14,193 bases of DNA. It comes from Peptococcaceae bacterium BRH_c23. GTDB lineage: Bacteria > Bacillota_B > Desulfitobacteriia > Desulfitobacteriales > Desulfitobacteriaceae. The stretch spans positions 1 through 14,193 of the forward strand of contig LADV01000003.1 of assembly GCA_000961805.1 (NCBI GenBank). The letters are read 5' to 3'. The notes beneath the pieces were generated by a model. That model had not been told where the DNA came from. It saw only the letters and a program-made list of their open reading frames with translations, and ran no database searches. How positions within the stretch are numbered: position 1 is the first letter of the stretch; each line of letters starts with the position of its first letter. Shown in pieces: positions 980 to 14,038 of this stretch. The position numbers were made by a program, and so were the translations under genes.

Positions 980-980
980 A

Positions 981-1056: not shown

Positions 1057-1335
1057 TTGACAAATACCCATCAACTTTATGCAAGGCTAGTGAATGAAAT
1101 TAGTAAACTGGTTCCCCGAGGAACAAAGCTGCCACAGGTTGATGCAATAAGAGATACACTTAAAGTCGTGGATATAGACGGGCTAAAACAAATCAATCAA
1201 TACATAGTAAAAAAGACGATTAAGAATAAGGTTTTTGAAAACGGAACCATTGACGGATATACTGTGGCTACTATTGACGGAACAAAATTCTTCGGGAGCA
1301 ATAAGAATCTCCTTATCGTAAATATGTTTGACTAG
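1057..1335 (+). pseudogene. N-terminal fragment of an ISNCY/ISDol1-like transposase
   Basis: About 92 codons are readable. The segment VATIDGTKFFGSNK near residues 70-83 resembles the first catalytic Asp region of transposases that read IDGTKFFGSxKKxC followed by a zinc-type CxxC. Here the match stops abruptly after GSNK and the frame ends ten residues later, so the catalytic core and everything after it is missing. The start is uncertain: TTG at 1057 is possible but has no good ribosome binding site, and the same frame is open back to 1027, so the 5' end may be truncated as well. No terminal repeats could be paired with it. The family name is from memory of the motif and should be treated as tentative; that it is a transposase scrap is more secure. 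Confidence 0.5.
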
Positions 1336-1445
1336 ACCTTCTAAGATATGAATGTAAATTTGAGTGACTTTGGGGTTTGCATCCCCATGTGGGCTTGGGT
1401 TTTTTTAATTCCATTACCATTGTTCATCATTGAAGAGGCCTTCGA

Positions 1446-1649
1446 GTGACGAAAATGGGGAGAGTGGAATTTCCCCTTGACCTGAGCTCTTTTGCCGACA
1501 TTAACAATGATTTGCCTAAATCGTTCTTTGCCAAAGGTGAGGAAGGATTAGCGGAAGCTGGTAAGCTCAGGGAAGGCTGCCTGTTCAATGCAATGATTAT
1601 TGAAGAAAAGGGATTTTCTTTTGTCCAAAGCATTAACTTAGCATCATAG
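1446..1649 (+). CDS. Small hypothetical protein upstream of the primase-like gene
   Basis: An open frame of 67 codons from GTG at 1446, or 64 from ATG at 1455, ending in TAG. I do not recognise the product. It is acidic and soluble-looking, with a central Phe-Phe-Ala-Lys-Gly-Glu-Glu segment and no signal peptide, membrane span or cysteine cluster. Neither start has a clear ribosome binding site, so it may be the 3' end of a longer gene whose front was lost; the frame is closed by TGA at 1431-1433. Its stop is followed, 11 bases later, by the strongly signalled start of the CHC2 zinc-finger gene, which suggests the two belonged to one plasmid-, phage- or ICE-type operon. A 94-codon antisense frame covers the same stretch but has no supporting signal. 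Confidence 0.4.
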   Translation: MTKMGRVEFPLDLSSFADINNDLPKSFFAKGEEGLAEAGKLREGCLFNAMIIEEKGFSFVQSINLAS

Positions 1650-1660
1650 AAAGGGGGGGC

Positions 1661-2004
1661 ATGAACATGCTCCCTTCCATTTCGGAAGTAGCAATTCAGC
1701 ACGGGCTTCAAATGAACGACCGCACATCCAAAAGCGTAAAGGACTTACGCTTTAAATGCCCGTTCTGCCAGGCCGACGATAAGAGAACAGATAAATATTA
1801 TCTTTCTCTGAACACGAATGACAACGTGTTCCATTGTTGGTCTTGTCACGAACACGGGGGAGTTTTAAGCTCATAGCTTTGTTGGAGCATTCTTCGATCG
1901 AAGAAGTGAAGAGGAATCTGTGGGGAGAAACAAAGGCCCCATGCAAGCCCCTTCATCCAGCCGAACGCCTTACCCCTGCACAACTTAAAGCCATGGTTAG
2001 CTGA
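1661..2004 (+). pseudogene. CHC2 zinc-finger (DNA primase-like) protein, frameshifted
   Basis: The gene starts at ATG 1661 behind a very strong AAAGGGGGGG site (1650-1658). Residues 33-62 form a zinc ribbon of the CHC2 primase type: CPFC (C33, C36), then HCWSC (C59, C62) followed by HEHGG. In this family the text should continue as a GGV-x-x-LIALLE helix. The actual frame stops at 1874-1876, but one frame over the sequence reads KLIALLEHSSIEEVKRNLWGE from 1867 on, to a stop at 2002-2004. One missing T in the TTTT run at 1863-1866 accounts for this exactly. Downstream the gene runs into a methyltransferase fragment, so only the zinc-binding front is left. The usual homes of such genes are plasmids, phages and integrative elements, in line with the neighbouring debris. 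Confidence 0.65.
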
Positions 2005-2134
2005 AAAAGGTTATGTGGTTACAGCTGTTGACATTTCCGCAGAAATGATGGAGCGGGCCAAGAAAAAGATTTCTGAATTGGGTTTACAAGTAAAATGGTG
2101 TCGATATGACATTGCAAAAATAATGATAACATAG
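1997..2134 (+). pseudogene. Fragment of a class I SAM-dependent methyltransferase
   Basis: A 45-codon open frame without its own start reads LAEKGYVVTAVDISAEMM and then an A-K-K-K-I helix and VKWCRYDIAK. This is the typical end of motif I through motif II/III of class I methyltransferases: helix, beta-strand 2 ending in the acidic Asp of VDIS, helix, beta-strand 3, D. The glycine-rich motif I that should come just before is absent, replaced by the tail of the primase-like pseudogene; the junction lies around 1988-1997. The fragment ends in TAG at 2132-2134. It cannot be functional. The substrate of the parent enzyme cannot be told. Confidence 0.55.
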
Positions 2135-2156
2135 GCGAATATCATGGTATCTTTCA

Positions 2157-2200
2157 GAATATTCAAAATATAATATATTAATTCAAAATATATAAGGGGG
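2157..2200 (+). promoter_or_regulatory. AT-rich leader with direct repeats and ribosome binding site of the FolD-like gene
   Basis: The 12-mer ATTCAAAATATA occurs at 2161-2172 and again at 2181-2192, 20 bp apart, overlapping the palindrome GAATATTC at 2157-2164. A TATAAT lies at 2169-2174, but no good -35 box sits 16-18 bp before it. AAGGGGG at 2194-2200 is a strong ribosome binding site eight bases before the TTG start at 2209. The repeats could be an operator or simply low-complexity AT sequence. Confidence 0.35.
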
Positions 2201-2208
2201 AAGCTACT

Positions 2209-2691
2209 TTGGATATTGATATGAATGGATTAGGATCTCAGTATATTAAAAGAAGCTTCGAGTCTCTTACTGATGATTTAGAATTCTTATTTGAACGATT
2301 ACACGTGCCAGTCTGTTTAGCTGCAGTGTTGATTGACGGACCTAATACTGCTATTTCCAGAGATCTCCTGCGGAAAACCTGTGACTCATTGCCCATTCGT
2401 TACTCCGAGTATTTGCTACCTCAAAATATCGGGTTGGAAAAGGTAGTTGCATTAATTGAGTCGCTAAATCGGGAAAAAGATATTCATGGGCTGATCATCG
2501 AAGTGCCATCCTCTCTTGAGTCCAAGTTAAATCTATTGTATGACTATATAAGTCCACAAAAAAATATTCGATTGAACGATGAAGATTACCATAAAATAGA
2601 AAAGTTTGGCCTTGATCCGCATGAAAAGTATATTTTAAGTATTCTCATGATGCTCGAAAAAGCCTTTAATACTGCCGTCTATCAAGCATAG
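2209..2691 (+). CDS. FolD-like N-terminal-domain protein lacking catalytic residues
   Basis: 160 residues starting at TTG 2209 (strong AAGGGGG site at 8 bases; ATG at 2221 is an alternative). Residues 33-120 follow the N-terminal domain of methylenetetrahydrofolate dehydrogenase/cyclohydrolase FolD: a VCLAAVLIDG strand, a helix ending near TC58, LPQNIGLEKVVALIESLN, then IHGLIIEVP and ISPQKNI. FolD normally has a catalytic Tyr and Lys in YVxxK; the aligned positions here are Ser and Leu. VQLP is IEVP, and the KDVDGF loop is KNIRLN. The C-terminal NAD(P) domain of FolD (total about 285 aa) is absent. It is therefore either a pseudo-enzyme or half of a decayed gene. Its place just before metV'/metF' remnants suggests a former folate C1 operon. 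The last residues may come from a junction with metV'. Confidence 0.6.
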   Translation: MDIDMNGLGSQYIKRSFESLTDDLEFLFERLHVPVCLAAVLIDGPNTAISRDLLRKTCDSLPIRYSEYLLPQNIGLEKVVALIESLNREKDIHGLIIEVPSSLESKLNLLYDYISPQKNIRLNDEDYHKIEKFGLDPHEKYILSILMMLEKAFNTAVYQA

Positions 2692-2693
2692 TA

Positions 2694-2876
2694 AGTGGTC
2701 CTTGCGGAGGCGCTCTCAATGGAAAGTGCGAAGTTAACTCCTTATCATCATGTGTTTGGAATGAACTATTTTTTCGATGGGCAAAAATGAATTCGCCGGT
2801 ATCGTTACCACAGTTTTGCAAAGATTATGATCGTCCAGTAATTTTAAACCAAGAGGGAATACTCAATGCCCTTTGA
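2694..2876 (+). pseudogene. C-terminal fragment of a second metV (metV')
   Basis: Directly after the stop of the FolD-like gene, another frame reads SGPCGGALNGKCEV, then SCVWNELFFRW, and ends in TGA at 2874-2876. This is the zinc/iron-sulfur C-terminus of MetV; the intact MetV of this window has NGPCGGSQNGKCEV followed by ECAWQLIYNR. There is no start; the N-terminal three quarters, including most of the cysteines, are missing. The end overlaps the start of the metF' fragment, the same overlap style as intact metV-metF further right, showing that the two were once a coupled pair. Sequence divergence from the intact MetV and its AT-rich composition argue against a recent duplicate. Confidence 0.75.
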
Positions 2877-3336
2877 AGAAGATTTGCGTAAAAAGGACTT
2901 TCTGATAACAGCGGAATTACTCCCGCCACGTGGTACAGAGGTTACCGAACTCTTAAAACAGGCAGAAGAATTGAAACCTTATGTCGATGCTTTCATTCTT
3001 CCCGATAATCCTGGCGCCAAATTGCGGGCGGCACCTCTGGGATTAGTGCATATCCTTCAATCCGAAGGTTTTGAGACCCTGCCGGGATCGAAACAGACTT
3101 GCTTGCAAGCTGATCTTTTGGCAGCCGGAAGCTTGGGTATCCGAAATGTCCTCGCAGTTACCGGGGATCATAATTTGCTTGGCGATCATCCTGCCAGCAA
3201 ACCGGTTTATGATTTGGATTCTGTCCAACTCCTGGCATTAGTAAAAAACCTAAATATGGGGCTGGATGCTAATGAACGGCCACTGACCATTTTTATGATG
3301 GAGAGGATGTGTGTGGACATGTCGGTCATATTTTAA
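2866..3336 (+). pseudogene. N-terminal half of a second metF (metF')
   Basis: Starts at ATG 2866, overlapping metV'. Residues 1-140 follow the TIM-barrel of methylenetetrahydrofolate reductase: FLITAELLPPRG with the family's catalytic Glu position, LQADLLAAGSLGIRNVLAVTGDH, and VYDLDSVQLL. The intact MetF has the parallel LQSDLLGAYSLGVRNVLCLSGDH and VYDLDSIQLI. The two are clearly different paralogues, not copies. After LDANERPL (about 3286) similarity stops; a normal MetF would continue with G-x-P-x-F-x-I-G-A and about 150 more residues. The last ~17 codons belong to a different segment. A truncated barrel cannot fold into an active enzyme. Possibly the organism's original MTHFR. Confidence 0.8.
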
Positions 3337-3468
3337 TAAATCACCGATGCTGGTAAAGCCATATTCGCTGATTAACGAGATACCACCGAAATTATGGTGA
3401 TGGCTGTAAATCGTCTCCGTTACTGTTACTCCTAAATTCCCATTAAGAACATGAGTGGCAACGTCGAG
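3250..3468 (-). other. Unidentified open frame inserted between metF' and uspA'
   Basis: On the minus strand the stretch between the metF' break (about 3286) and the uspA' duplication (from 3469) is one continuous open frame. It reads, for example, FLDVATHVLNGNLGVTVTE, then IYSHHHNFGGISLISEYGF, SIGDLLKYD, and a His-rich HVHTHPLHH, closing at 3250-3252. The composition looks protein-like (amphipathic helices, Gly turns, many His), whereas the plus strand here is full of stops. There is no start codon with a ribosome binding site and I cannot name the family. It is most likely a gene fragment brought in when the locus was rearranged. Confidence 0.3.
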
Positions 3469-3485
3469 GAAAGGGGTAATCTGTT

Positions 3486-3584
3486 TTGAATGATTGCAAG
3501 TTTAAAGTACTTCTCTACTCCGATGGGTCACATCAGGCTTTTTCTGCGGTCGTTTATACTGCCGCACTAGTTCTGAGGTTGTAA
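3486..3584 (+). pseudogene. 5' fragment of a second uspA (uspA')
   Basis: Thirty-two codons from TTG 3486 to TAA 3582-3584. The first ~28 codons are a clear copy of the uspA at 11849: KFKVLLYSDGSHQAFSA is identical in both. By eye the DNA of 3486-3569 matches 11849-11932 at about 72 of 84 positions (roughly 86%). Similarity extends upstream through the ribosome binding site GAAAGGGG (3469-3476, compare GAAAGAGG 11833-11840). The start codon has drifted from ATG to TTG. After residue 28 the copy ends and the frame stops at once, followed by a terminator. It encodes only the first strand and helix of the Usp fold and is non-functional. Confidence 0.85.
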
Positions 3585-3591
3585 CTCTAAT

Positions 3592-3619
3592 CACAGCTGC
3601 AGTTCTGCAGGTGTTTTTT
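3592..3619 (+). terminator. Rho-independent terminator ahead of the hdr operon
   Basis: CAC (3592-3594) pairs with GTG (3611-3613) and CTGC (3597-3600) with GCAG (3607-3610), with an AG bulge and the loop AGTTCT, followed directly by six T's (3614-3619). It closes the uspA' fragment and separates the debris on the left from the sigma-54 promoter on the right. The CTGCAG-TT-CTGCAG core could instead be a protein binding site. Confidence 0.5.
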
Positions 3620-3620
3620 G

Positions 3621-3653
3621 TTTCACGAGACCGGTTCCTGTTTTCACAAGCCA
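3621..3653 (+). promoter_or_regulatory. Candidate activator (enhancer) sites: direct repeats two helical turns apart
   Basis: TTTCACGAGACC (3621-3632) and TTTCACAAGCCA (3642-3653) are imperfect direct repeats exactly 21 bp apart, which puts them on the same DNA face. They lie about 80-110 bp upstream of the predicted sigma-54 transcription start, the normal distance for bacterial enhancer-binding proteins. An additional TGCC-N6-GGCA inverted repeat (3670-3683) lies between these repeats and the promoter. No regulator gene is in the window, so the protein is unknown. Confidence 0.4.
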
Positions 3654-3703
3654 AACTATCTTTTTTATATGCCTGAAATGGCAGGTTTGCGCCCTTTTTG
3701 GTG

Positions 3704-3720
3704 TTGGCACGAACCTTGCT
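3704..3720 (+). promoter_or_regulatory. Sigma-54 (-24/-12) promoter of the hdr-met operon
   Basis: TTGGCACGAACCTTGCT matches the sigma-54 consensus YTGGCACGrNNNTTGCW at every specified position, with the -24 GG (3706-3707) and -12 GC (3718-3719) exactly 12 bases apart. The expected transcript starts near 3730, about 27 bases before the GTG of hdrC. Transcription would need an AAA+ activator; the repeats at 3621-3653 are candidate binding sites. A TATAAT at 3733-3738 has no acceptable -35 partner. Confidence 0.8.
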
Positions 3721-3756
3721 TTGTTAAGAATTTATAATTGTTTGGGGGTAAAGGAT

Positions 3757-4308
3757 GTGAACGATTTCCTAGAGTTGCTGGAAGCGGAGAGCGGTCAGCC
3801 CATCAGCCGCTGTTATCAGTGCAAGAAGTGCAGCGGCGGCTGTCCGGTAAGCTCCTACACAGACATCAGACCCAACCAGGTGGTGAGGCTGGCCCAGCTG
3901 GGGAAGCAGGAGGAGCTGCTCGCCTCGCCGGGAATCTGGTACTGTACGGGCTGCATGACTTGCCAGGCGCGCTGCCCTAATGGCATCAACATTTCGGCAA
4001 TCCTTGACGTAATCAAGGCCCGGGCCATGAAGGACGGGGATTTGACAGCTGAAAGCTTACCCTTTTTCCACGACTGCTTCCTGGCTTCGGTCAGGCACCA
4101 CGGCAGAGTATTTGAGCTGGGCATGGTGGCCGGTTACAAATGGCGCTCCAAGAGATGGACCGACGATAAAGGATTGGGAGCCAGGATGTTCCTTAAAGGA
4201 AAGTTGGCGCTTCTCCCCAACCGCTGCAGCAACAGCCGGCAAATCCGCGAGATTTTCGAGATAGAAGTAGCACTCCGCAAACAGGAAGGGGGTAAGGACA
4301 ATGGGTGA
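3757..4308 (+). CDS. hdrC: Heterodisulfide reductase-like subunit C
   Basis: A 183-residue iron-sulfur protein that links HdrB to HdrA in the electron relay. Two complete [4Fe-4S] motifs are visible: C19-x2-C22-x2-C25-x3-C29-P (RCYQCKKCSGGCP) and C63-x2-C66-x2-C69-x3-C73-P (WYCTGCMTCQARCP). A helical C-terminal half with several aromatic and basic residues follows, as usual in HdrC. The chosen start is GTG 3757. It follows GGGGG (3744-3748, 8 bases away) and lies downstream of the predicted sigma-54 transcript start, whereas the longer TTG at 3721 would precede it; the protein then begins MNDFLELLEAESG, as HdrC proteins typically do. Its end overlaps hdrB by 8 bases, indicating coupled translation. 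First gene of the operon. Confidence 0.92.
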   Translation: MNDFLELLEAESGQPISRCYQCKKCSGGCPVSSYTDIRPNQVVRLAQLGKQEELLASPGIWYCTGCMTCQARCPNGINISAILDVIKARAMKDGDLTAESLPFFHDCFLASVRHHGRVFELGMVAGYKWRSKRWTDDKGLGARMFLKGKLALLPNRCSNSRQIREIFEIEVALRKQEGGKDNG

Positions 4309-5173
4309 GCGGCTTGGTTACTATCCCGGATGTTCCCTGCATACCAGCGCCAGGGAATACGACCTTTCCTGCCGTGCGGTGCTTAAGGCCCTTGGCGTGG
4401 ACTATGCGGAAATTCCGGACTGGAACTGCTGCGGCGCGAGTTCAGCCCACGGCGCCGGGCATGCCCTCAGCCGGGCCCTGCCCCTGCGCAACCTGATGAT
4501 CGCCGAGGATGTGGGAGAAGAACTGATAGTGCCCTGTGCGGCTTGCTACAGCATCTTGCGCTCCACCACCGGCTATCTGCAGAAAAAATCCGCAGAGGCC
4601 AGGGAGCTGCAGGCTAAAGTGGAGCAGGTTCTGGGCAAACCCTACCGGGAAAAAGTCCGGGTAACCCATCCTTTAGACTTGCTAACCAGGCCGGAAATGC
4701 TCAACAAGATCAAAGGACAGCTGCGTACTTCGCTGAACGGCATTAAACTTGCCCCCTATTACGGCTGTTTCCTGGTCCGGCCGGAAATTGCCGCCTTCGA
4801 TAACCAGGAACAGCCTCAGAAGATGGATATTCTGCTGCGGGAAGTGGGGGCTGAAGTGGTCCGCTGGTCCTATAAAACCGAATGCTGCGGCGGCGGAGTA
4901 GGGATTACCGAGGGTTCGGTGGCGTCTTCCCTGGTGGAGAAGCTGGTCTGCGAGGCCAGGAAGGCGGGGGCGGAAGCCGTGGTCACGGCCTGCCCCCTGT
5001 GCCAGGCCAACCTGGAAGGCAGGCAGACCCAGGGTTTACCGAGTTTCTATTTCACAGAACTGGTGGGCCTGGCCCTGGGGATTTCCGCAAGCAAGCGGTG
5101 GTTTAAGTCCCATCTGGTAGATCCAACCTCGGTGTTAACCAAAGTGCAAGGGGGGATATCCGGTGGCAGATAA
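4301..5173 (+). CDS. hdrB: Heterodisulfide reductase-like subunit B (two CCG domains)
   Basis: A 290-residue protein with both cysteine-rich CCG domains complete. The first has C11, C43-C44, C79 and C82 (YYPGCSLH, NCCGASSAHG, VPCAACYS). The second has C156, C195-C196, C231 and C234 (YYGCFLVRP, ECCGGGVG, ACPLCQ). In methanogen HdrB each CCG domain holds a non-cubane [4Fe-4S] cluster that reduces the CoM-S-S-CoB disulfide. That substrate does not exist in bacteria; in the acetogen MetFV-HdrABC-MvhD complex the subunit is thought to take part in passing electrons towards or within the methylenetetrahydrofolate reductase. ATG 4301 has a good GGGGGTAAGGA site. It overlaps hdrC by 8 and hdrA by 11 bases. 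Soluble, no membrane segments. Confidence 0.93.
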   Translation: MGERLGYYPGCSLHTSAREYDLSCRAVLKALGVDYAEIPDWNCCGASSAHGAGHALSRALPLRNLMIAEDVGEELIVPCAACYSILRSTTGYLQKKSAEARELQAKVEQVLGKPYREKVRVTHPLDLLTRPEMLNKIKGQLRTSLNGIKLAPYYGCFLVRPEIAAFDNQEQPQKMDILLREVGAEVVRWSYKTECCGGGVGITEGSVASSLVEKLVCEARKAGAEAVVTACPLCQANLEGRQTQGLPSFYFTELVGLALGISASKRWFKSHLVDPTSVLTKVQGGISGGR

Positions 5174-8100
5174 AGTGGTTGGCGCCGTAATGGTGGTAGG
5201 GGGCGGAATTGCCGGCATGCAGTCCGCTCAGGATCTGGCCAATGGGGGATTCTTGGTGCATTTGGTGACCGACGAATCCTCAATCGGCGGCAAAATGGCC
5301 CAGTTGGACAAAACCTTTCCCACAAATGAATGCGCCATGTGTCTCTTAGGGCCGAAAATGTCCGACACCTTAAGCCACCCTAATATTCAAATCCATACCT
5401 GTTCAACTTTGACCAAAGTCGAAGGTGATGCAGGTAACTTTAAGGCCACGCTGGTAGAGGCCCCGCGCTACGTAAATATGGCCGAGTGTACGGCCTGCGG
5501 GGATTGTGAGCAGGTCTGCCCGGTTGAGGTAGGGGATCGCTTCAACGAGGGCTCCATGCAGCGCAAAGCAATCTATAAGCTGTTTCCCCAGGCGGTGCCC
5601 AACAAGTACCTGGTGGAAAAAAGCGGCACACCTCCCTGCCGGGGCACCTGCCCGGCAGGCTGTAACGTCCAGGGTTATGTAGCATTGCTCTCCAAAGGAA
5701 AGTTCGGCGAGGCCTTGGAGGTTATCAGGAGGCGCATGCCCTTTGCCGGGGTTTGCGGACGGATCTGCCACCATCCCTGTGAAGGGGAATGCAACCGCAA
5801 GCAAGTCGATGAGCCCATCGCCATCGCCCAGTTGAAACGCTCTGCGGCGGACTACGGTTGGGTTGAAGCGGCGGAACAGAACCTGTTGGTCAAACTGCCC
5901 GCAGAATTCTTGCTGGATGAACAGGGCAATCCCTTAAAAACAGCTGTAATCGGGGCAGGTCCCGGCGGCCTGGCAGCAGCCAAGGACCTGGCTGAGCTGG
6001 GTTACCAGGTGACTGTCATTGATGCCCTGCCGGAAGCCGGCGGGATGCTGCGGGCCGGAATTCCCCGCTACCGTCTGCCCGGGGAGATTGTTAGCCGTGA
6101 AACCCAGGCCATCTTAGACCTGGGAGTGACCTTTAGGCCCAATACCAGGGTCGGGGTAGACGTATGCTTTGCGGACTTGCAATCAGAATTTGATGCAGTG
6201 CTTGTTGCAACAGGTTTTCAAAAGGGCCGTTCGCTGCCCATCCCGGGGAACGAACTCAAGGGAGTGGAACTGGGGGTCGAGTTCCTCCGGGCGGCTGCCT
6301 TGGGTGAAACACCGGCAGTAGGCAGGAAAACAGTGATTATCGGCGGGGGCAACGTAGCTATAGATACGGCCCGCACCGCTCTGCGGCTGGGGGCAGGGGA
6401 AGTTCACCTCTACTGCCTGGAAGATTATGAGCATATGCCGGCTCACCGATGGGAGATCGATGAGGCCGAGGAAGAAGGGGTGTGCGTTCACGCCGGTTGG
6501 GGACCCAAAGAAATCCTTGGCAAAAACGGCGGAGTGATCGGAGCAAGTTTCAAACGCTGCACCCGGGTCTTCGATGAAAATGGACAATTCAATCCGGCCT
6601 ATGATGAACTGCAAACGGAAATGATCAGCGCCGACTGCGTTGTCCTTTCCATCGGCCAGGCCAGCGACCTGTCCTTCCTGGACGGAACAGGGCTGGAAAC
6701 CAACCGGGGCGTGATTAAGGTTGATAAACTGACATACGCCACCAACCAAGCAGGGGTGTTCGCCTGCGGGGATATCGTCAGCGGGCCTGCTTCTGTGGTC
6801 GCTGCCGTCGGCGCCGCCCATGAAGCGGCTGAATCCATCCACCGTTTCCTCCAGGGTCAGGACCTCAGGCAGGGCAGGAGTCTGGCGAGACCGGAACCGG
6901 TGGGAGTACCTGAAGGTTTGAAGGTGAAGGTTGCTGCCCGGCAAAACCAAGCCCAGGCGGATCCCGCACGGCGGGTCAGGGATTTCGCTGAAGTCTATCA
7001 AGGTCTGACCCGGGAGCAGGTTATCAACGAGGCTAAACGCTGCCTGAACTGCGGGATTTGCTCCGAATGCCTGCAGTGCGTCAAGGCATGCAAGAAAAAG
7101 GCTATTGACCATTCGGCAGAACCCCAGGTTTATGAATTGGCCGTGGGGGCCGTAATCCTCTCTCCAGGTTACCAGGTGGAATCGGGAAACCTGAGGGGCG
7201 AGTACGGCTACGGCATCTATGAAAACGTCATGACCTCCCTGGAGTATGAACGTCTGCTTAGTTCCACCGGGCCTACCCAGGGCCATGTGCTGCGGCCTTC
7301 GGACCGCAAAGCGCCGCAGAAAGTCGCCTTTATCCAATGCGTAGGCTCGCGGACCTGTAATAAGGGAACAGAATACTGCTCTTCCATCTGCTGTATGTAT
7401 TCGACCAAAGAAGCCATCATCTCCCGTGAACACGATGCCAACATCCAGCCGGCGATATTCTACCTGGACATGAGGTCCTACGGCAAGAACTTTGACAAGT
7501 ACGTTAAATCAGCCAAGAAAAACGGGGTGCGTTATGTGCGCACCATGATCTCCAGCGTCAAGGAAGATCCCGTGAGCGGCAACCTGGTCATTAAATACCT
7601 CCAGGACAGTAAAATCGTGGAGGAAGAGTTCGAATTGGTGGTCCTGGCCATGGGGGTTAAACCGCCGAAGGCTGCTGGGGAACTGGCCCGTGTTACGGGG
7701 ATAAACTTGAATGAATACGGCTTTGCCCATACCAACCCGCTGGACCCGATTCAGACATCCAGACCGGGCGTTTTCGTGGCGGGAGCTTTCCAGGGTCCCA
7801 GAGATATTCCCGAGACCGTGATGAACGCCAGCGCTGCTGCCGCTGTTGCAGGTGCTCTCCTGGCTGACGGACGTAACCAGCTGGTTACTCCCAAGGTCTA
7901 TCCTCCGGAACGCGATGTCAGCGGGGAAGCAGCCAAAGTGGGTGTGTTTGTCTGCCACTGCGGCATCAACATCGGTTCCATCGTAGACGTTCCCGGCACT
8001 GTAGCCTATGCCAGGACCCTGCCCGGCGTGGTCCACGCCGAGGAGTTCCTCTACACCTGTTCCCAGGACTCCGTCAAACACATTGAAGACTTAATCAACG

Positions 8101-9422
8101 AGCAAGGGCTTAACCGGGTAGTGGTGGCTTCCTGCACCATCAGGACGCATCAGCCCCTGTTCCGAGAGGCCTTAAGGGAGGCCGGATTAAACCAGTTCCT
8201 GTTCGAAATGGCCAATATCCGGGACCAGTGCTCATGGGTGCACAGGGCTGAACCAAAACGGGCTACGGTTAAAGCCAGGGACTTGGTCCGGGCGGCAGTG
8301 GCCAAGGTCAAGGGCCATGCGCCCCTGCACCTGGAACCGGTGCCGGTAGTCCCCAGGGCTCTGGTTATCGGAGGCGGGATAGCCGGAATGACGGCCTGTC
8401 TGACCTTTGCCAAGCAGGGATTCGAGTCTTACCTGGTGGAACGGGAGCAGGTCCTGGGCGGCAACCTGCGCGAACTGCGCTTTGGGGAAGACGGCCAGGA
8501 CGCACAGGAATATATGCTTGAGGTGATCGACAAAGTCCAGTCCAATCCCTTGATTCAGGTGTTTACTCAAACGGAACTCCTGGATATTACCGGTCACCAG
8601 GGACACTTTGTCAGCGCCATGAAGACTGGGGACCTGCGCCAGGAGGTGCACCACGGGGTGGTTGTCGTGGCCACTGGCGGCAGGTTGTCGGAAGCAAACC
8701 CGGTTTACGGAATGGATAAAGACCCCAGAATCATCACCCTGGCAGAGCTGGAAGAAAAACTCCACGCCCTGCAGCAGGTGCAGGAAGGCAAGCCGCTGTT
8801 AGCCTATCGCGAATCGCTGGGCAAATGGCGCGAAGCAGCCATTATCCTCTGCGCCAGCGCCGGGGAGGAGCTGCCCTACTGCAGCAGGAGCTGCTGCACC
8901 CAGGGCATCTCCAACGCCATCAGGCTGAAGCAGCAAAATCCTCAGGGCACGGTCTATGTGCTGCACCGCGAAATCCGCACCTACGGTTTCCTGGAGAGCT
9001 ACTACAAGCTGGCCCGGGAAATGGGGATAGTCTTCGTCCGCTACTCCCCGGATAAGCTGCCGGCCCCGGAAATTGGCGCGGAGCTGTCGATTAGGGTGGC
9101 AGACCTGGATTCAGAAATGGAATTTCTGATCAAACCGGACCTCTTGGTCTTGGCACAGGGTTTTGAAGCGGCCGAGGGCGCCAGGGAACTGGGCACCCTG
9201 CTCAAAGTGCCGCTGAATGAAGACAGCTTCTTCATGGAAACCCACGCCAAGCTGGGACCGATGGATTTTCCGGGCTCTGGAATGTTCCTCTGTGGAGCCG
9301 CCCACTCGCCCAAGAGGCTCTGGAATGTTCCTCTGTGGAGCTGCCCACTCGCCCAAGTTTGTCAGCGAGGCCATCTATCAGGCCCAGGGGGCAGTGGCCC
9401 GGGCAGTGACCATCCTGGCTAA
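5163..9422 (+). CDS. hdrA: HdrA-like flavoprotein with in-line GltD domain; frameshifted near the 3' end
   Basis: 1419 residues as read, from GTG 5163 (AAGGGGGG site) to TAA 9420-9422. Order of domains: HdrA FAD fold (VVGGGIAG 11-18, SSIGGKMAQLDKTFPTNE); ferredoxin motif C109-C112-C115-C119; GltD-like insert about 155-620 with its own Fe-S entry domain (PPCRGTCPAGC, CGRICHHPCEGEC), a second FAD site (VIGAGPGGLAAA 262-273) and an NAD(P)H site (VIIGGGNVAIDTA 391-403). HdrA resumes at C627/C630/C633/C636 with the C726-C743 cluster region. A second HdrA-like module (VCHCGINIG 930-938; FAD site VIGGGIAGM 1068-1076; CSRSCCTQG 1240-1248) completes it. After residue 1384 a 43-bp duplication shifts the frame and removes the last two [4Fe-4S] clusters, found at 9433-9675. 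GltD enzymes have arginines for the NADPH phosphate where this protein has YCLED, suggesting NADH. Confidence 0.85.
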   Translation: MADKVVGAVMVVGGGIAGMQSAQDLANGGFLVHLVTDESSIGGKMAQLDKTFPTNECAMCLLGPKMSDTLSHPNIQIHTCSTLTKVEGDAGNFKATLVEAPRYVNMAECTACGDCEQVCPVEVGDRFNEGSMQRKAIYKLFPQAVPNKYLVEKSGTPPCRGTCPAGCNVQGYVALLSKGKFGEALEVIRRRMPFAGVCGRICHHPCEGECNRKQVDEPIAIAQLKRSAADYGWVEAAEQNLLVKLPAEFLLDEQGNPLKTAVIGAGPGGLAAAKDLAELGYQVTVIDALPEAGGMLRAGIPRYRLPGEIVSRETQAILDLGVTFRPNTRVGVDVCFADLQSEFDAVLVATGFQKGRSLPIPGNELKGVELGVEFLRAAALGETPAVGRKTVIIGGGNVAIDTARTALRLGAGEVHLYCLEDYEHMPAHRWEIDEAEEEGVCVHAGWGPKEILGKNGGVIGASFKRCTRVFDENGQFNPAYDELQTEMISADCVVLSIGQASDLSFLDGTGLETNRGVIKVDKLTYATNQAGVFACGDIVSGPASVVAAVGAAHEAAESIHRFLQGQDLRQGRSLARPEPVGVPEGLKVKVAARQNQAQADPARRVRDFAEVYQGLTREQVINEAKRCLNCGICSECLQCVKACKKKAIDHSAEPQVYELAVGAVILSPGYQVESGNLRGEYGYGIYENVMTSLEYERLLSSTGPTQGHVLRPSDRKAPQKVAFIQCVGSRTCNKGTEYCSSICCMYSTKEAIISREHDANIQPAIFYLDMRSYGKNFDKYVKSAKKNGVRYVRTMISSVKEDPVSGNLVIKYLQDSKIVEEEFELVVLAMGVKPPKAAGELARVTGINLNEYGFAHTNPLDPIQTSRPGVFVAGAFQGPRDIPETVMNASAAAAVAGALLADGRNQLVTPKVYPPERDVSGEAAKVGVFVCHCGINIGSIVDVPGTVAYARTLPGVVHAEEFLYTCSQDSVKHIEDLINEQGLNRVVVASCTIRTHQPLFREALREAGLNQFLFEMANIRDQCSWVHRAEPKRATVKARDLVRAAVAKVKGHAPLHLEPVPVVPRALVIGGGIAGMTACLTFAKQGFESYLVEREQVLGGNLRELRFGEDGQDAQEYMLEVIDKVQSNPLIQVFTQTELLDITGHQGHFVSAMKTGDLRQEVHHGVVVVATGGRLSEANPVYGMDKDPRIITLAELEEKLHALQQVQEGKPLLAYRESLGKWREAAIILCASAGEELPYCSRSCCTQGISNAIRLKQQNPQGTVYVLHREIRTYGFLESYYKLAREMGIVFVRYSPDKLPAPEIGAELSIRVADLDSEMEFLIKPDLLVLAQGFEAAEGARELGTLLKVPLNEDSFFMETHAKLGPMDFPGSGMFLCGAAHSPKRLWNVPLWSCPLAQVCQRGHLSGPGGSGPGSDHPG
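9273..9358 (+). repeat. 43-bp tandem duplication that breaks the hdrA frame
   Basis: Bases 9273-9315 and 9316-9358 are two successive copies starting GGCTCTGGAATG and ending CCCAAG, with one internal mismatch (C at 9298, T at 9341) and a difference at the last base (A versus T). Because 43 is not a multiple of three, the frame shifts by one. Deleting either copy joins GSGMFLCGAAHSPK directly to FVSEAIYQAQGAVARA, the normal HdrA text. It could be a real slippage event, a population variant or an assembly error. Confidence 0.9.
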
Positions 9423-9432
9423 GCCCCACCTG

Positions 9433-9675
9433 ATGGTGGGTGGGGTGGTTGCCAAGGTGGAAGCGGAAAAATGCGCTGCCTGTCTGACCTGCGTCCGGGT
9501 TTGCCCCTACAGCGTACCGAAGATCGGGCCCAAAATGGTTGCGGAAATCGAAGCTGTCCAGTGCCACGGGTGCGGCACCTGCGTCGGCGAGTGCCCGGCC
9601 AAAGCCATTCAACTCCAGCACTACACCGACGAACAAATGTTGGCCAAAATCTCCGCGGTTGGGAGGACTGAGTAA
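9433..9675 (+). CDS. hdrA: Detached C-terminal two-[4Fe-4S] ferredoxin domain of HdrA
   Basis: The part of HdrA lost through the 43-bp duplication continues in another frame: from about 9358 it reads KFVSEAIYQAQGAVARA, then two ferredoxin motifs C-x2-C-x2-C-x3-CP (KCAACLTCVRVCP and QCHGCGTCVGECP), ending in TAA 9673-9675. In HdrA proteins these clusters hand electrons to MvhD, so the reductase relay depends on them. The first in-frame ATG after the premature stop is at 9433, only 10 bases downstream, and could allow re-initiation to give a free 80-residue ferredoxin; there is no ribosome binding site of its own. If the duplication is an artefact, this is simply residues of a single HdrA of about 1489 aa. 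It overlaps mvhD by one base (TAATG). Confidence 0.6.
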   Translation: MVGGVVAKVEAEKCAACLTCVRVCPYSVPKIGPKMVAEIEAVQCHGCGTCVGECPAKAIQLQHYTDEQMLAKISAVGRTE

Positions 9676-10154
9676 TGGAAAAGCGCGAGAGTGGAAATAG
9701 GGAAAGTTTCTATCCCAAAATCATTGCCTTCTGCTGTTACTACTGCGCCTATTCGGCCGCCGACCTGGCAGGGTCGCTGCGCCTGCAGTACCCGCCAACG
9801 GTGCGGATGATCGAACAGCCCTGTTCCGGCAAAGTGGATATCCGTCTCCTGCTGCAAGCCTTTGAGGACGGAGCGGACGGGGTGTACGTGGCGGGCTGCA
9901 TGGAGGGGGATTGCCACTTCCTCAAAGGCAACATCAGGGCCAAAAAACGGGTTAACGCCGCCAAAATAATCCTCGACAAGGTCGGGGTCGGCGGTGAGAG
10001 GCTGGAAATGTTCAACCTGTCGGGCTCCATGGGCCCCAGATTCGCCGAAATAGCCAATGAGATGACGGAAAGAATTTTACGGCTCGGTCCCAACCCGCTG
10101 AACACAGCCAGGGCCGAGCGGACCACAAAGGGAGAGGAGGGAGACCCTAAATGA
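9675..10154 (+). CDS. mvhD: MvhD-like [2Fe-2S] electron-transfer subunit
   Basis: 159 residues from ATG 9675, overlapping the hdrA reading by one base and metV by four (ATGA). The MvhD/FrhD fold is recognisable: CCYYCAYSAADLAG at 20-33, VRMIEQPCSGKVD at 43-55, and VAGCMEGDCHFLKGN at 72-86. The conserved cysteines C21, C24, C50, C75 and C80 supply the [2Fe-2S] ligands. In methanogens MvhD connects a hydrogenase with HdrA. Here no hydrogenase gene is nearby and MvhD instead precedes metV-metF, so its likely partner is MetV on one side and HdrA on the other, as in Moorella. The C-terminal ~25 residues are basic and hydrophilic. Confidence 0.92.
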   Translation: MEKRESGNRESFYPKIIAFCCYYCAYSAADLAGSLRLQYPPTVRMIEQPCSGKVDIRLLLQAFEDGADGVYVAGCMEGDCHFLKGNIRAKKRVNAAKIILDKVGVGGERLEMFNLSGSMGPRFAEIANEMTERILRLGPNPLNTARAERTTKGEEGDPK

Positions 10155-10822
10155 TCGTAGCGGAAGCGAAACCGTTGGAGGAAATCCTGGAGTCCCTGCA
10201 GGGAATGTCAAAGGTTTTGGTAGTGGGTTGCGGCGGCTGCGTGTCGGTCTGCCTGGCCGGCGGAGAAAAGGAAACGGGAATTCTGGCCAGCACCCTGCGC
10301 ATGAAGCGCGAGCTTATGGGCGACTCCCTAGAAACTGTGGAGGAAACCCTGACCCGCCAGTGCGATCCCGAATACGTGCAGCAGCTGGCCAAAAAGCTGG
10401 AAGGTATTGACTGCATCCTTTCCCTGGCCTGCGGAGTGGGTGTACAGTTTCTAGCGGAACAATTCCCCCAAACCTGGGTGGTTCCGGCCCTGAATACCAT
10501 GTTCGCCGGTGCGACCATGGAGCACGGACTTTGGGAGGAACGTTGCGGGTTGTGCGGGGAATGTGTGCTGGCCCGGACCGGCGGGGTATGTCCGGTAATC
10601 CGCTGTGCCAAGAGCCTCTTAAACGGTCCCTGCGGCGGTTCGCAGAATGGCAAATGCGAAGTGAAGCCCAACGAATGCGCCTGGCAGTTGATTTACAACA
10701 GGGTGAGCGAGCTGGGCAGGTTGGAACTGCTTCTGGACGTGGCTGGGGCCAAGGACTGGTCTAAGTCCAGGGACGGCGGTCCCCGCAAAATGGTCAGAGA
10801 GGATGTGAAGATCGATGGCTGA
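10151..10822 (+). CDS. metV: Methylenetetrahydrofolate reductase small subunit MetV
   Basis: 223 residues with two cysteine-rich regions. The N-terminal half carries VGCGGCVSVC (C27, C30, C34), C71, C88 and C94. The C-terminal half has CGLCGEC (C132, C135, C138), C147, C152, C161, GKCE (C169) and C176, including the family signature LLNGPCGGSQNGKCEV. In acetogens MetV is the iron-sulfur (and in part zinc) partner that feeds electrons to the flavin of MetF. It starts at ATG 10151 in ATGA overlap with mvhD, with GGAGAGGAGGGAGA just upstream as a very strong ribosome binding site, and overlaps metF by 8 bases. Stoichiometric, coupled expression of MvhD, MetV and MetF is implied. All expected cysteines appear to be present. 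Confidence 0.93.
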   Translation: MIVAEAKPLEEILESLQGMSKVLVVGCGGCVSVCLAGGEKETGILASTLRMKRELMGDSLETVEETLTRQCDPEYVQQLAKKLEGIDCILSLACGVGVQFLAEQFPQTWVVPALNTMFAGATMEHGLWEERCGLCGECVLARTGGVCPVIRCAKSLLNGPCGGSQNGKCEVKPNECAWQLIYNRVSELGRLELLLDVAGAKDWSKSRDGGPRKMVREDVKIDG

Positions 10823-11732
10823 GGAAAAGAGCAAACTGCAGAGCCTGTTCGAGCAGGGCGAATTTGCAGTAACCTGCGAGATCGGCCCGCCGAAAAACGC
10901 CCAGGGAGACGGCATCCGCAAGCACACCGAACACCTGAAGCCATTTGTGGACGCCGTAAACCTCACCGACAACCAGACAGCCATCGTCAGGCTTTCCAGC
11001 ATCGGGGCCGGTGTGCATGTTCTGGCGGCAGGCGGCGAACCCATTATCCAGATGACAACCCGCGACCGCAACCGCATAGCCTTGCAGAGCGATTTGCTGG
11101 GGGCCTACAGCCTGGGGGTGCGCAACGTGCTCTGTCTCTCGGGGGATCACCAGACCTTTGGCAACCATCAAGGAGCGAAAAACGTCTATGATCTGGATTC
11201 CATCCAGTTAATCCAAACTGTAAAAGACATGCGGGAAGCCAAAGTGTTCCAATCCGGGGAAGTAATCAAGCAGGGGGAGCCACGGTTTTTCATCGGGGCG
11301 GTCGCCAATCCCTTCGCCGACCCCTTCGAGTTCCGGGTGCTGCGGCTGGAAAAGAAAATCCGGGCAGGCGCCCAGTTCATTCAAACCCAGTGCATCTTCG
11401 ACATGGAGCGCTTTGAAGCCTTCATGGATCTGGCCCGCAAGCGGGGCCTCCACCAGCAAGCCTATATTATGGCCGGGGTAATGCCCATCAAGTCCGCTAA
11501 GGTGGCTAAGTATATGCAGAAAAACGTTTCCGGCATGCTGGTCCCCGATGGGATTGTGGAAAGAATGAGCAAGGCTGTGGACCAACCGGCCGAGGGCGTC
11601 AAACTTTGCATCGAGCAGATCAAACATTTGCGGACCATTCCCGGAGTACGGGGAGTTCATATCATGGCAGTGGCCTGGGAAGAAATTGTGCCGGAAATCG
11701 TCAAAGGAGCGGGGCTGTTACCAAGGCCTTAA
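10815..11732 (+). CDS. metF: 5,10-methylenetetrahydrofolate reductase MetF
   Basis: 305 residues, a normal length for MetF. It is a FAD-containing TIM barrel that reduces methylene-THF to methyl-THF, the last step of the methyl branch of the Wood-Ljungdahl pathway. Visible marks: VTCEIGPPKN at 19-28 with E22 in the catalytic Glu position (E28 of E. coli MetF), LTDNQTA 50-56, TTRDRNR 81-87, LQSDLLGAYSLGVRNVLCL 90-108, SGDH 109-112, VYDLDSIQLI 124-133, IGAVANPFADP 160-170, and AQFIQTQCIFD 186-196. It ends LLPRP as many bacterial MetF do. Last gene of the operon; no clear terminator follows before uspA, so some read-through is possible. A divergent, truncated paralogue lies at 2866-3336. Confidence 0.95.
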   Translation: MAEEKSKLQSLFEQGEFAVTCEIGPPKNAQGDGIRKHTEHLKPFVDAVNLTDNQTAIVRLSSIGAGVHVLAAGGEPIIQMTTRDRNRIALQSDLLGAYSLGVRNVLCLSGDHQTFGNHQGAKNVYDLDSIQLIQTVKDMREAKVFQSGEVIKQGEPRFFIGAVANPFADPFEFRVLRLEKKIRAGAQFIQTQCIFDMERFEAFMDLARKRGLHQQAYIMAGVMPIKSAKVAKYMQKNVSGMLVPDGIVERMSKAVDQPAEGVKLCIEQIKHLRTIPGVRGVHIMAVAWEEIVPEIVKGAGLLPRP

Positions 11733-11744
11733 GAAAAGTGCCTG

Positions 11745-11831
11745 ATGTGTTCTTTTGAAGACAGATCACTTTTGGAAGCGTCAGATTTAAAACATATCAA
11801 AGAATTAGGCTATCAGCGTCAAATGTATTGA
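11745..11831 (+). other. Possible remnant open frame between metF and uspA
   Basis: After the metF stop the same frame stays open for a further 33 codons: EKCLMCSFEDRSLLEASDL and on to a stop at 11829-11831. An ATG at 11745 would give 28 residues. It reads like protein and is AT-rich like uspA, unlike metF, but has no ribosome binding site. It is perhaps the tail of a gene that preceded uspA before the operon arrived. Low confidence that it is expressed. Confidence 0.2.
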
Positions 11832-11848
11832 TGAAAGAGGTATTTGAC

Positions 11849-12481
11849 ATGAATGATTCTAAGTTTAAAGTACTTCTCTACTCCGATGGTTCACACCAGG
11901 CGTTTTCTGCAGCTGTTTATACAGCCACGCTATTAAAGAATATGCCTAATATGCATTTGACCATCGTGCAGGTACATGAAGCTGATGGAGGTTCACTGGG
12001 GACAGAATATAGTTGGAAAGAGTTGAGGCCTAGGTACAAAAGATATTCTTGGGGGTGTTCTAAAGGGAATGTATATAGTTGGATAGACACTTGGCCGGTT
12101 AGCCCTACCTCTGACTGGATGAGGCGCGTGCTCGATGAAGGTGATTCGGCCATAAGAAAACAATATTCTAAAATACTTACCAAAACTAACGAAATATTTT
12201 CAAAGAAAGGGCTCAACGTCAAGCATGAGGAATTATGTTCCGATTACAGTATTTCCGACACATCTGACATATCCCAAATAGCAGATGTAATTCTTGATTA
12301 TGCAACAAAAGGTTCATTTGAATTAATAATTATGGGTACGCGGGGGCTTTCTACCTTACATAGGCTGATTTTTGGTAGTTTAGCGTATACAGTGTTAAAC
12401 AAATCCCCTATACAGGTGTTGTTAATTAAGAAACTTCCTCAATACATTATTGATAGTTACTTGGCAGACACTGAGCACTAA
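11849..12481 (+). CDS. Universal stress protein family (UspA-like) with insertion
   Basis: 210 residues from ATG 11849, eight bases after GAAAGAGG; earlier in-frame starts at 11828 and 11831 lack a site. The N-terminal strand KFKVLLYSDGSHQAFSAA and the C-terminal signature IIMGTRGLSTLHRLIFGSLAYTVL are typical. The ATP-binding pattern G-x2-G-x9-G-S is intact (GTRG, nine residues, GS), suggesting an ATP-binding, MJ0577-like member. It is longer than the usual 140-160 residues because of an aromatic-rich insertion of about 50 residues (roughly 47-97, rich in Trp, Tyr, Lys and Arg). Base composition is AT-rich, unlike the operon before it. Its 5' end is duplicated at 3469-3569. Function unknown beyond stress or nucleotide sensing; a terminator follows at once. 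Confidence 0.88.
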   Translation: MNDSKFKVLLYSDGSHQAFSAAVYTATLLKNMPNMHLTIVQVHEADGGSLGTEYSWKELRPRYKRYSWGCSKGNVYSWIDTWPVSPTSDWMRRVLDEGDSAIRKQYSKILTKTNEIFSKKGLNVKHEELCSDYSISDTSDISQIADVILDYATKGSFELIIMGTRGLSTLHRLIFGSLAYTVLNKSPIQVLLIKKLPQYIIDSYLADTEH

Positions 12482-12496
12482 GAATAATCTTGAGAG

Positions 12497-12529
12497 AAAG
12501 CACTGGAGGCGACAACCCAGTGCTTTTTT
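12497..12529 (+). terminator. Rho-independent terminator of uspA
   Basis: AAAGCACTGG (12497-12506) and CCAGTGCTTT (12517-12526) form a perfect 10-bp stem with a 10-base loop, and the T-run continues to 12529. It starts 15 bases after the uspA stop. A textbook terminator, and the main transcription stop for anything reading through from metF. Confidence 0.92.
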
Positions 12530-12955
12530 GTTGTCCAACAGTGAAAAAGTATCATAGAGAAATATTAAAAACATTTGAGGGTCTGCGCGTACTGTCGCGT
12601 GTCTACAGATATGAAAGAACAGGAAGCGAGTTTTGAATCACACGTTGAGACCGTGGTAAGTATAAGAAAACAGACACTCTGAAAGACGCTTGTGGTGCGG
12701 CTTTGAGAAAGCATATAGTCTTTTTAGGGTGACGTAGCGTGTGGAGAACTATATTCTGCGAGATCATTTGGTCTAGCCTTTTAGATTATTTCAAGCATCG
12801 ATAAATGTTTCCAAAATATTCACATTGTACTTCCCCATTTGTCAAGAATGAAAATAGTTTCATTTTGCTGAAGTCTTATAACAATACCCCAAACTCATCA
12901 TCGACGTCGGTTACCCAAATAACTAAATCGGATTTTTGATCAACTAAGAATTCGT
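12530..12955. other. Gene-poor AT-rich stretch
   Basis: No convincing gene is seen in these 426 bases. A 31-codon frame from GTG 12541 and a few short frames on either strand have no ribosome binding sites or recognisable motifs. A small perfect hairpin, AATGAAA-ATAG-TTTCATT, lies at 12847-12864. On the minus strand a 30-codon frame around 12865-12965 looks protein-like but cannot be assigned. The stretch is probably the worn edge between the uspA locus and the recombinase element. Confidence 0.4.
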
Positions 12956-13718
12956 ATGACCTATGAACAACAGCACTTTAGCCTCTACCACGGTCAAACC
13001 ATTGATTTCACTGGTTTTTTTACCGATTTCAAAAGTGTATCAAATTCGGAGTTATTTAACGTTTTTGTCCAACCTCACTTTCTGCTAAAATTAGAAGGGA
13101 AGAGAGGTCGAAATGAGAAAGAACTACTTTGCAAAATTTCCATCGACCGAGGAAATCCCATGGGCAAGCGTGACTATGCCATTATCCTTTTGGCCTGCCG
13201 TCTTGGCTTAAGGTGTACGGATATCAAAAATCTTACAATGGACAACTTCCACTGGGAAGACAAAAAACTGATCTTCGTGCAGTCAAAAACAAGGACGACA
13301 TTATCCCTTCCACTGACAGCAGAGGTTGGATGGTCTGTCATTGATTATCTGAAGTACGGTCGCCCAAACGTAGAAAGTCGGTGTGTCTTCGTGAGACATC
13401 TTGCTCCATTTCTTCCTTTTTCGGAAAGTGACCACTTACACCAGATGATTGCAAAATACATGCAACTTGCACATCTGCCCACCTTAAGAAAGAGGACGGG
13501 GATGCACTCACTTCGCCATTATGTAGAGCCTCAGATTATGGGGAGCTCTACATAATCGCCACACTTTGGCCAGTTTACTGCTAGAAAACGATACTCCACT
13601 TCCTGCCATTTCTGATATCCTTGGGCATGTTGATACGGAATCTACGGCGGTCTATTTGAAAGTAGATATCAAAAGGCTCAAGGCATGTCCTTTGGATTTA
13701 GTGGAGGATATGGCATGA
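12956..13718 (+). pseudogene. Tyrosine recombinase (trio-type integrase), interrupted
   Basis: The catalytic domain starts around IDRGNPMGKRDYAIILL and carries the first active-site Arg in LGLRCTDIKNL, the Lys in QSKTRTT, and HSLRH (His and second Arg). It continues in another frame as TLASLLLENDTPLPAISDI, LGHVD (second His) and YLK (Tyr nucleophile). A 43-base insertion (39-bp mini-element plus 4-bp duplication) between HSLRH and TLAS shifts the frame, giving a stop at 13553-13555. Removing it restores 239 codons ending in TGA 13716-13718. The N-terminal ~70 residues do not resemble the core-binding domain of such enzymes, so the 5' end also seems to be replaced. The stop overlaps the next recombinase start (ATGA), the arrangement seen in recombinase-in-trio (RIT) elements. 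Confidence 0.8.
13514..13560. mobile_element. 39-bp inverted-repeat mini-element with 4-bp target duplication
   Basis: ATTATGTAGAGC (13518-13529) and GCTCTACATAAT (13545-13556) are perfect 12-bp inverted repeats around 15 bases, flanked by CGCC on both sides (13514-13517, 13557-13560). A third, partly matching copy ATTATGGGGAGC (13535-13546, 10 of 12) lies in direct orientation inside. The element cuts the recombinase exactly within its HSLRH-TLAS junction, and its removal restores the protein, which proves insertion. No transposase is encoded; it is a solo terminal-repeat or MITE-like remnant moved by an element elsewhere. Confidence 0.75.
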
Positions 13719-14038
13719 TAGATATCACTTATTATGGGTCATTTAAAGAACACATAAAAAACCATGTCGAGTTGAAGCAGGCTGTCGGGTATAAATATAT
13801 CGCAGAAGCAGAGCATCTAAAGCGTTTTGATACGTTTACACTGGAAAAATACAGTTTTAGTACGACTCTGACAAAGGAAATTGTGTTGGACTGGTGCAGT
13901 AAAAAGCCCTATGAATCACAGGCAAACCAGTGCACACGAGCCTCTATTATTCGTCAATTCAGCAGATACTTTGACAGCATCGGTGTTGCAGCCTACATTA
14001 TGCCGAATGGTTATTGGACTAAACCGCTATCGCGGTAG
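13715..14038 (+). pseudogene. Second tyrosine recombinase, N-terminal fragment
   Basis: 107 residues from ATG 13715, overlapping the first recombinase stop by four bases (ATGA). The text (YGSFKEHIKNHVELKQAVGY, a KRFDTF segment, LTKEIVLDWCSKKPYESQANQ, IRQFSRYFDSIG) is the SAM-like core-binding domain of tyrosine recombinases found in tandem-recombinase elements. Full-length relatives are about 330-400 residues; after the GVAAYIMPN segment the frame ends within about ten residues, before any catalytic residue. The truncation coincides with what may be the end of another element starting near 14057. Non-functional. Confidence 0.75.

Follow-up and report, generated by a model that had tools for sequence, protein, structure and literature searches.

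A putative Hdr-type methylenetetrahydrofolate reductase operon moves between Desulfosporosinus species together with the ruins of an older cassette

Introduction

Energy saving at the methylene-tetrahydrofolate (methylene-THF) reductase step of the Wood-Ljungdahl pathway is debated, and the types of methylenetetrahydrofolate reductase (MTHFR) differ among organisms. A stretch of 14,193 nucleotides from Peptococcaceae bacterium BRH_c23 (contig LADV01000003.1, positions 1 to 14,193), here called the window and used for all coordinates below unless a locus is named, carries six genes in a single plus-strand operon, hdrC-hdrB-hdrA-mvhD-metV-metF, predicted by homology to encode an Hdr-type MTHFR. 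The operon is G+C-rich, its surroundings are A+T-rich, and remnants of another metV-metF pair lie on its left. Judged by the matching loci described below, the window probably comes from an A+T-rich genome like those of the sulfate-reducing genus Desulfosporosinus. The locus raises the question of whether a foreign reductase displaced a native one in this host, as a preliminary description of the sequence had proposed. Composition and distribution support the part of that proposal in which a foreign operon lies directly downstream of a decaying MTHFR cassette. A single arrival and swap in this host is not supported, since ruins, operon, and the adjoining usp gene have travelled together between species.

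Composition and distribution of the operon

The sharp change in composition at both operon ends that had been claimed was reproduced in a 500-bp profile, with 57.7% G+C in the operon (3705-11732) against 39-41% outside it (left relic, 40.4%; right usp region, 39.0%; outer flanks, 41.3 and 40.2%). All 16 consecutive 500-bp segments within 3705-11732 reach at least 53.4% G+C (mean 57.7%), and the 11 flank segments average 40.6%, with a maximum of 46.0%. The operon comprises hdrC (3757-4308), hdrB (4301-5173), hdrA with a GltD/NfnA-like insert (5163-9675), mvhD of the FlpD family (9675-10154), metV (10151-10822), and metF (10815-11732). The hdrC frame is open from 3721, and its start codon is uncertain, the likely one being the GTG at 3757.

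A MetF scan of genome contigs returned 55 loci, of which the nearest is that of Desulfosporosinus sp. I2 (G002), at 98% amino acid identity. Among 34 MetF protein entries, 26 reach at least 96% identity, and the window's own entry is one of these. The operon MetF is present at 97-98% identity in three of the 29 Desulfosporosinus genomes, namely I2, D. acidiphilus SJ4 (G004), and D. orientis DSM 765 (G013), and is missing from the other 26. These three named strains are referred to below as the carriers, and together with the window as the four loci. Across the order Desulfitobacteriales the operon was found in 7 of 73 genomes, a count in which G053 duplicates G001 (SKS1.bin126) and which includes one match at 47% as well as the SKS1, DBS2-4, and BP4 group of metagenome-assembled genomes (MAGs) discussed below. 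At third codon positions the G+C content (GC3) of the operon genes ranges over 0.67-0.72 for the window and 0.64-0.72 for the three carriers, whose rpoB genes have 0.41-0.42.

Movement of the block between species

In all three carriers the operon is flanked by a common half-folD relic on the left and a usp gene on the right. The resulting shared block, about 2087-12540 in the window, consists of half-folD, the metV'/metF' relic, a usp fragment, the operon, and the usp gene, and is homologous in I2, D. orientis, and D. acidiphilus. Over the 8 kb of the operon, nucleotide identity among the four loci is 93.8-96.4%. The same comparisons give a synonymous divergence (dS) of 0.05-0.26 and a ratio of nonsynonymous to synonymous divergence (dN/dS) of 0.03-0.33, and therefore the operon genes are under purifying selection. 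The half-folD region (89-98%) and the usp gene (91.5-94.7% among the window, D. orientis, and D. acidiphilus) show a pattern like that of the operon.

Two control genes behave quite differently. Among the three carriers, rpoB is 78-81% identical (third positions 45-51%, dS above 2 or saturated), and identity falls to 74-78% for the resident fused MTHFR, with 45-50% at third positions. This second control is an MTHFR-matching frame of 522-542 amino acids present in 27 of the 29 genus genomes, including all three carriers, and its MTHFR and DUF5981 domains were confirmed in one scanned copy (G019). Since the operon is 94-96% identical while rpoB and the fused MTHFR are far more diverged, the block, relics included, has moved recently between Desulfosporosinus species. 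The preliminary description had named agreement with the species tree, with all close relatives carrying the operon at this locus in the same composition, as the outcome that would speak against a foreign origin; the 26 genomes without operon MetF and a divergence unlike that of core genes are the opposite of this.

Beyond the block, the outer neighbours differ among the carriers and the window. D. orientis has cooS and a GAF-type sigma-54 activator on the left and an oxidoreductase on the right, where the flanking gene is accessory; D. acidiphilus is flanked by phosphotransferase system genes and a methyltransferase; and the window has transposase and recombinase fragments. The activator was confirmed, and the other carrier genes are open reading frames (ORFs) read by eye. 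The right-hand usp gene of I2 matches the window at 90% only over 11734-11968 and at 68-78% further out, and therefore the right end of the block has been exchanged in I2, which also retains another piece of a left usp copy than the window does. With a composition unlike that of the host, a patchy presence, varied neighbourhoods, transposase and recombinase fragments near the window's copy, and a divergence unlike that of core genes (as judged from the two control genes), the block resembles genomic islands.

As a separate observation, the usp gene at the right end (11828-12481, plus strand) has a dN/dS of 0.8-1.7 among the window, D. orientis, and D. acidiphilus, compared with 0.03-0.33 for the operon.

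The displaced cassette

The A+T-rich metV'-metF' ruins recognized in the preliminary description are indeed present, at 2692-2865 and from 2866 to about 3270. On the plus strand, a frame of 160 amino acids that matches PF00763 only (half-FolD, 2209-2691; the last about 10 residues are lost in the window) is followed by a metV' remnant that keeps the C-terminal part with the GPCGG motif, and by a metF' remnant (2866-3336), whose homology to cassette MetF extends to about 3270. The decayed pair lies upstream of the foreign metVF at all four loci, and is fullest in the window. A deletion that joins half-FolD to metV has one and the same junction in the window, I2, and D. orientis; D. acidiphilus carries a different deletion and retains a longer half-FolD end. 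The relic MetF is 42% identical to the operon MetF. Among the 29 genus genomes good matches to the relic are limited to the carriers, and intact relatives are found in other Desulfitobacteriales.

These relatives are located through half-FolD. A protein search returned 15 homologues, 12 of them at 86-99% identity and three (170-173 amino acids) at 54-59%. Within the 82 genomes of the class, half-FolD was detected at 1e-10 in nine: the three carriers, Paradesulfitobacterium ferrireducens (G049, twice), two other Desulfitobacteriales (G050 and G046), and three weak cases within longer frames. At all four G049, G050, and G046 places half-FolD is followed consecutively by a mini-MetV (frames of 98-114 amino acids) and MetF, giving intact cassettes at L228:8024-9679, L229:6743-8492, L230:1269-2971, and L231:7431-9073 (minus), two of which belong to P. 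ferrireducens. The domains were confirmed for one P. ferrireducens copy and for G046. Compared with the MetF proteins of these cassettes, the relic MetF shows 65-67% identity in three cases and 53% in the fourth; a single metagenomic fragment comes nearer, at 87%. What lies left of the operon is a decayed short MTHFR cassette composed of half-FolD, mini-MetV, and MetF. In P. ferrireducens two CBS-type sigma-54 activators follow the cassette, and in G046 it adjoins cooS and cooC (read by eye), with a CooS 38% identical to that of D. orientis.

The PF00763 frame was also considered as the ruin of a full-length folD, and this was rejected: half-FolD is an intact, small, conserved family, and its frame is unbroken in all four genomes, with pairwise dN/dS of 0.13-0.53. 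Its AlphaFold model, built on an alignment of 10 sequences, has a predicted local distance difference test score (pLDDT) of 85.8, and all 50 of the PDB matches listed for it are FolD-type enzymes (best E value 4e-6, query template modelling score about 0.6). Half-FolD resembles FolD in its sequence profile and in the predicted fold of the N-terminal domain, but at 160-173 amino acids it is without the NAD(P)-binding domain and does not have the two-domain build of FolD. Furthermore, a profile alignment to 3p2o places Ser, Leu, and Glu of half-FolD at the positions of Tyr, Lys, and Gln in the N-terminal domain of FolD, which we take to be the catalytic residues of that enzyme. Because the NAD(P) domain is missing and these three residues are replaced, half-FolD is likely a non-catalytic subunit of the old cassette.

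The presence of the decayed pair upstream of the foreign metVF at all four loci would also be expected if one old transfer had replaced the native MTHFR of the host and nothing had moved afterwards. This explanation is unlikely, as the loci are nearly identical in species whose two control genes show much greater divergence, the outer flanks differ, and the carriers retain the fused MTHFR. The idea of a replacement stands to the extent that a decayed cassette lies beside the operon; it is not supported as a replacement of the native MTHFR, given the fused gene kept by the carriers.

Origin of the operon

The nearest relatives of the operon are found in high-G+C MAGs of the same order. In SKS1.bin126 the operon has a GC3 of 0.64-0.73 and rpoB one of 0.63. 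In the RpoB tree, SKS1, DBS2-4, and BP4 form one group (SH-like approximate likelihood ratio test, SH-aLRT, 84) adjoining Desulfosporosinus, within Desulfitobacteriales, and the RpoB of SKS1 is 92% identical to that of BP4 and 85% to that of I2. Trees of MetF and HdrA unite the carriers with SKS1 (with DBS2-4 for MetF) and leave BP4 outside (SH-aLRT 89 and 95), and a concatenated tree of 16 rows agrees in placing the carriers with SKS1 (support 80/84). For HdrB, HdrA, MetV, and MetF, I2 and SKS1 are nearer to each other than are SKS1 and BP4. These results place the probable donor close to SKS1 and DBS2-4.

SKS1, DBS2-4, and BP4 have a seventh gene after metF, encoding a zinc-ribbon protein (L011:10936-11142; also downstream of metF in L012 and L015). 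I2 retains it with a one-base gap that shifts the frame, together with a terminator-like hairpin; in D. acidiphilus the hairpin alone is left after metF; and the window and D. orientis have neither the gene nor the hairpin.

SKS1.bin126 also holds a 6.2-kb contig, C47, whose operon is 97.0% identical to that of I2 and 94.6% to the window. The MAG's own operon (contig C108) is 73% identical to the window, and the two contigs have coverages of 1.42 and 2.21, respectively. C47 is probably a misbinned Desulfosporosinus contig, and SKS1.bin126 was rejected as kin of the window given that C47 differs from the C108 operon; the window flanks 1-3700 and 11600-14193 gave no match in SKS1.bin126. Separately, this MAG has the module in a second arrangement at L003, where a further metVF (67% nucleotide identity) is preceded by an HdrA/MvhD-like frame and followed by another gene that is HdrA-like.

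Proposed history and competing explanations

The sequence of events that would account for these observations begins with a high-G+C relative in Desulfitobacteriales that gave its Hdr-type MTHFR operon to a Desulfosporosinus lineage. The donated piece would have comprised hdrC-hdrB-hdrA-mvhD-metV-metF with its own sigma-54 promoter, a terminator, and probably the small zinc-ribbon gene. It would have landed beside the older short cassette and a usp gene, after which the old metV-metF pair decayed, and the whole block, ruins included, would later have been passed among Desulfosporosinus species. As a whole, this account of a foreign operon, a decaying cassette, and a block handed between species is held with good confidence.

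Several observations weigh against it. Neither a transfer vehicle nor sharp block ends were found, and the left ends differ between carriers. Inspection of ORFs, ends, and repeats within the shared block revealed no integrase, relaxase, tRNA target, or terminal repeat, and the block does not have the integrase or transposase of its own and the defined ends common to all copies that characterize an integrative or transposable element. Searches for an empty site yielded none. The one predicted earlier, an intact metF' followed directly by usp, was not encountered, and other genes follow metF in all four of the intact cassettes examined. The left flank of D. acidiphilus has a colinear counterpart in G019, and the matching right flank was not found in the 19.9 kb examined there. 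The GC3 of the BP4.bin80 operon is intermediate (0.51-0.59; its rpoB, 0.43), and MvhD identities run opposite to those of the other operon proteins. A clade of SKS1 and BP4 apart from the carriers is not rejected by the approximately unbiased (AU) test (p 0.113), and nesting within the donor group cannot be proved by the operon tree alone. The core comparison consists of two control genes. Finally, the deletion common to the window, I2, and D. orientis conflicts with HdrA, which groups D. orientis with D. acidiphilus; since the two disagree, copies of the block may have recombined.

The AU result and the position of SKS1, DBS2-4, and BP4 as the RpoB sister group of Desulfosporosinus would permit vertical inheritance from an ancestor common to both, followed by loss in most species. 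This is very improbable: operon dS of 0.05-0.26 stands against rpoB dS above 2 and 74-78% identity in the fused MTHFR, GC3 of 0.64-0.72 against 0.41-0.42, and the operon is missing from 26 of 29 genomes and differs in its outer flanks. Vertical descent with losses within the genus is rejected on divergence, and could apply only before the spread. An assembly chimera as the source of the G+C-rich segment, which the odd duplication in hdrA (see below) and the apparently misbinned C47 might suggest, is scarcely credible. It is refuted for the junctions between this segment and its A+T-rich flanks, because three other genomes have the same junctions, in two cases within contigs of 5,863,081 and 4,926,837 bases.

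The operon adds one more member to an enzyme type already known, and the block, travelling beside a displaced cassette, is a new form of known island behaviour. No description of the operon or of its transfer in Desulfosporosinus was found in the accessible portions of the open-licence literature (PMC9430772, PMC8982180, PMC7248197, PMC6372793, PMC7483475, PMC8515935).

Sigma-54 control

The sigma-54 element expected ahead of the operon is present as an exact -24/-12 consensus at 3705-3720 (plus strand). Chance alone would give 0.67 matches per window when one mismatch is allowed, and therefore support for the element comes from its position and from its presence in two outgroup operons, those of SKS1 and BP4. 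Strict -24/-12 sites lie upstream of the operon in the window, I2, SKS1, and BP4 (4 of the 15 scanned loci with a forward hdrC), and upstream of none of the nine Moorella-like forward operons; the element is altered in D. orientis and D. acidiphilus. Directly upstream of the hdr operon of BP4 (L015:1500-2684) lies a gene for a sigma-54 activator-like protein of 394 amino acids, 40% identical to the D. orientis activator, which is a candidate regulator of the promoter. Based on the sites in the window, I2, SKS1, and BP4 and on the activators near the BP4, D. orientis, and P. ferrireducens loci, sigma-54 control may be an ancestral trait of the sub-clade that is decaying in some carriers.

Enzyme type and predicted function

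Homology predicts that the operon encodes a Moorella-type, NAD(P)H-linked Hdr complex with MTHFR activity. The Hdr-type (6S-type) MTHFR locus of Moorella thermoacetica has the same six genes in identical order, and the loci align gene by gene. Window-type HdrA, about 1490 amino acids long (1489 in the I2 orthologue) and with a GltD-like insert, aligns with M. thermoacetica HdrA over its full length at 62% identity; residues 156-640 match NfnA/GltD-like chains and those from 633 onward match solved HdrA chains. In the accessible part of the source (PMC9430772), M. thermoacetica HdrA is described with this architecture, a GltD-like insert that binds NAD(P)H. The first flavin E/K pair of M. thermoacetica HdrA is retained, but in the second the Lys is replaced by Ser in the carriers, SKS1, and BP4, with the Glu kept, so that the signature of both flavins seen in Moorella is incomplete. 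This does not exclude membership in the Hdr-type family, because Sporomusa ovata, according to the same part of that source, likewise combines HdrCBA-MvhD-MetVF with the E/K signature in one of two flavins; its HdrA differs in that the GltD domain present here is missing (PMC9430772). Further differences from the Moorella operon are the sigma-54 promoter, the seventh zinc-ribbon gene in the donor-like MAGs, and the block common to several species.

In the resulting scheme, HdrA would take electrons from NAD(P)H, HdrCB and MvhD would link HdrA to MetVF, and MetVF would reduce methylene-THF or operate in reverse during acetate oxidation. In the window itself a 43-bp tandem duplication at 9273-9357 (plus strand; two 42-nt copies with one mismatch), absent from the preliminary description, shifts the frame of hdrA and breaks it after codon 1384. 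The duplication is absent from I2, D. orientis, D. acidiphilus, and contig C47, and hdrA is intact in the three carriers; it is either a real mutation or an assembly artefact. With hdrA frameshifted, the organism from which the window comes may lack a working Hdr complex, unless the frameshift is an assembly error.

In the accessible part of PMC6372793, the Wood-Ljungdahl pathway is given as present in all other sequenced Desulfosporosinus species. The genus offers a natural experiment, with species that have or lack a recently acquired Hdr-type MTHFR, nearly all of which carry a resident fused MTHFR-like gene, and it provides a case in which a module of energy metabolism passes between species and brings along the remains of the one before it. 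The locus also draws attention to a short, unstudied MTHFR cassette in which half-FolD is a protein of its own. In a bolder reading, to which only tentative credence is given, sulfate-reducing Desulfosporosinus would exchange its methyl-branch reductase like a plug-in. An Hdr-type MTHFR under sigma-54 control, linked to NAD(P)H and with a single flavin competent for bifurcation, might spread between species as a block and displace another kind of MTHFR cassette, one of mini-MetV, MetF, and a catalytically dead half-FolD acting as a folate-binding or docking subunit.

Flanking features of the window

The copies of the usp 5' end on both sides of the operon and the transposase and recombinase remnants reported in the preliminary description are all present. 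The left copy (3466-3569, plus strand) is a direct repeat of the right-hand usp gene, with 3487-3569 being 87% identical to 11850-11932. Outside the shared block are an IS4-family transposase fragment (142-915, minus strand), which scores under the NCBIfam cut-off, and a tyrosine recombinase fragment (12956-13555, within the region 12956-14038). A megablast search of the whole window against plasmids gave no match. Two short pieces of the window, 1227-1307 (81 bases) and 13063-13136 (74 bases), recur to the left of the block in D. acidiphilus.

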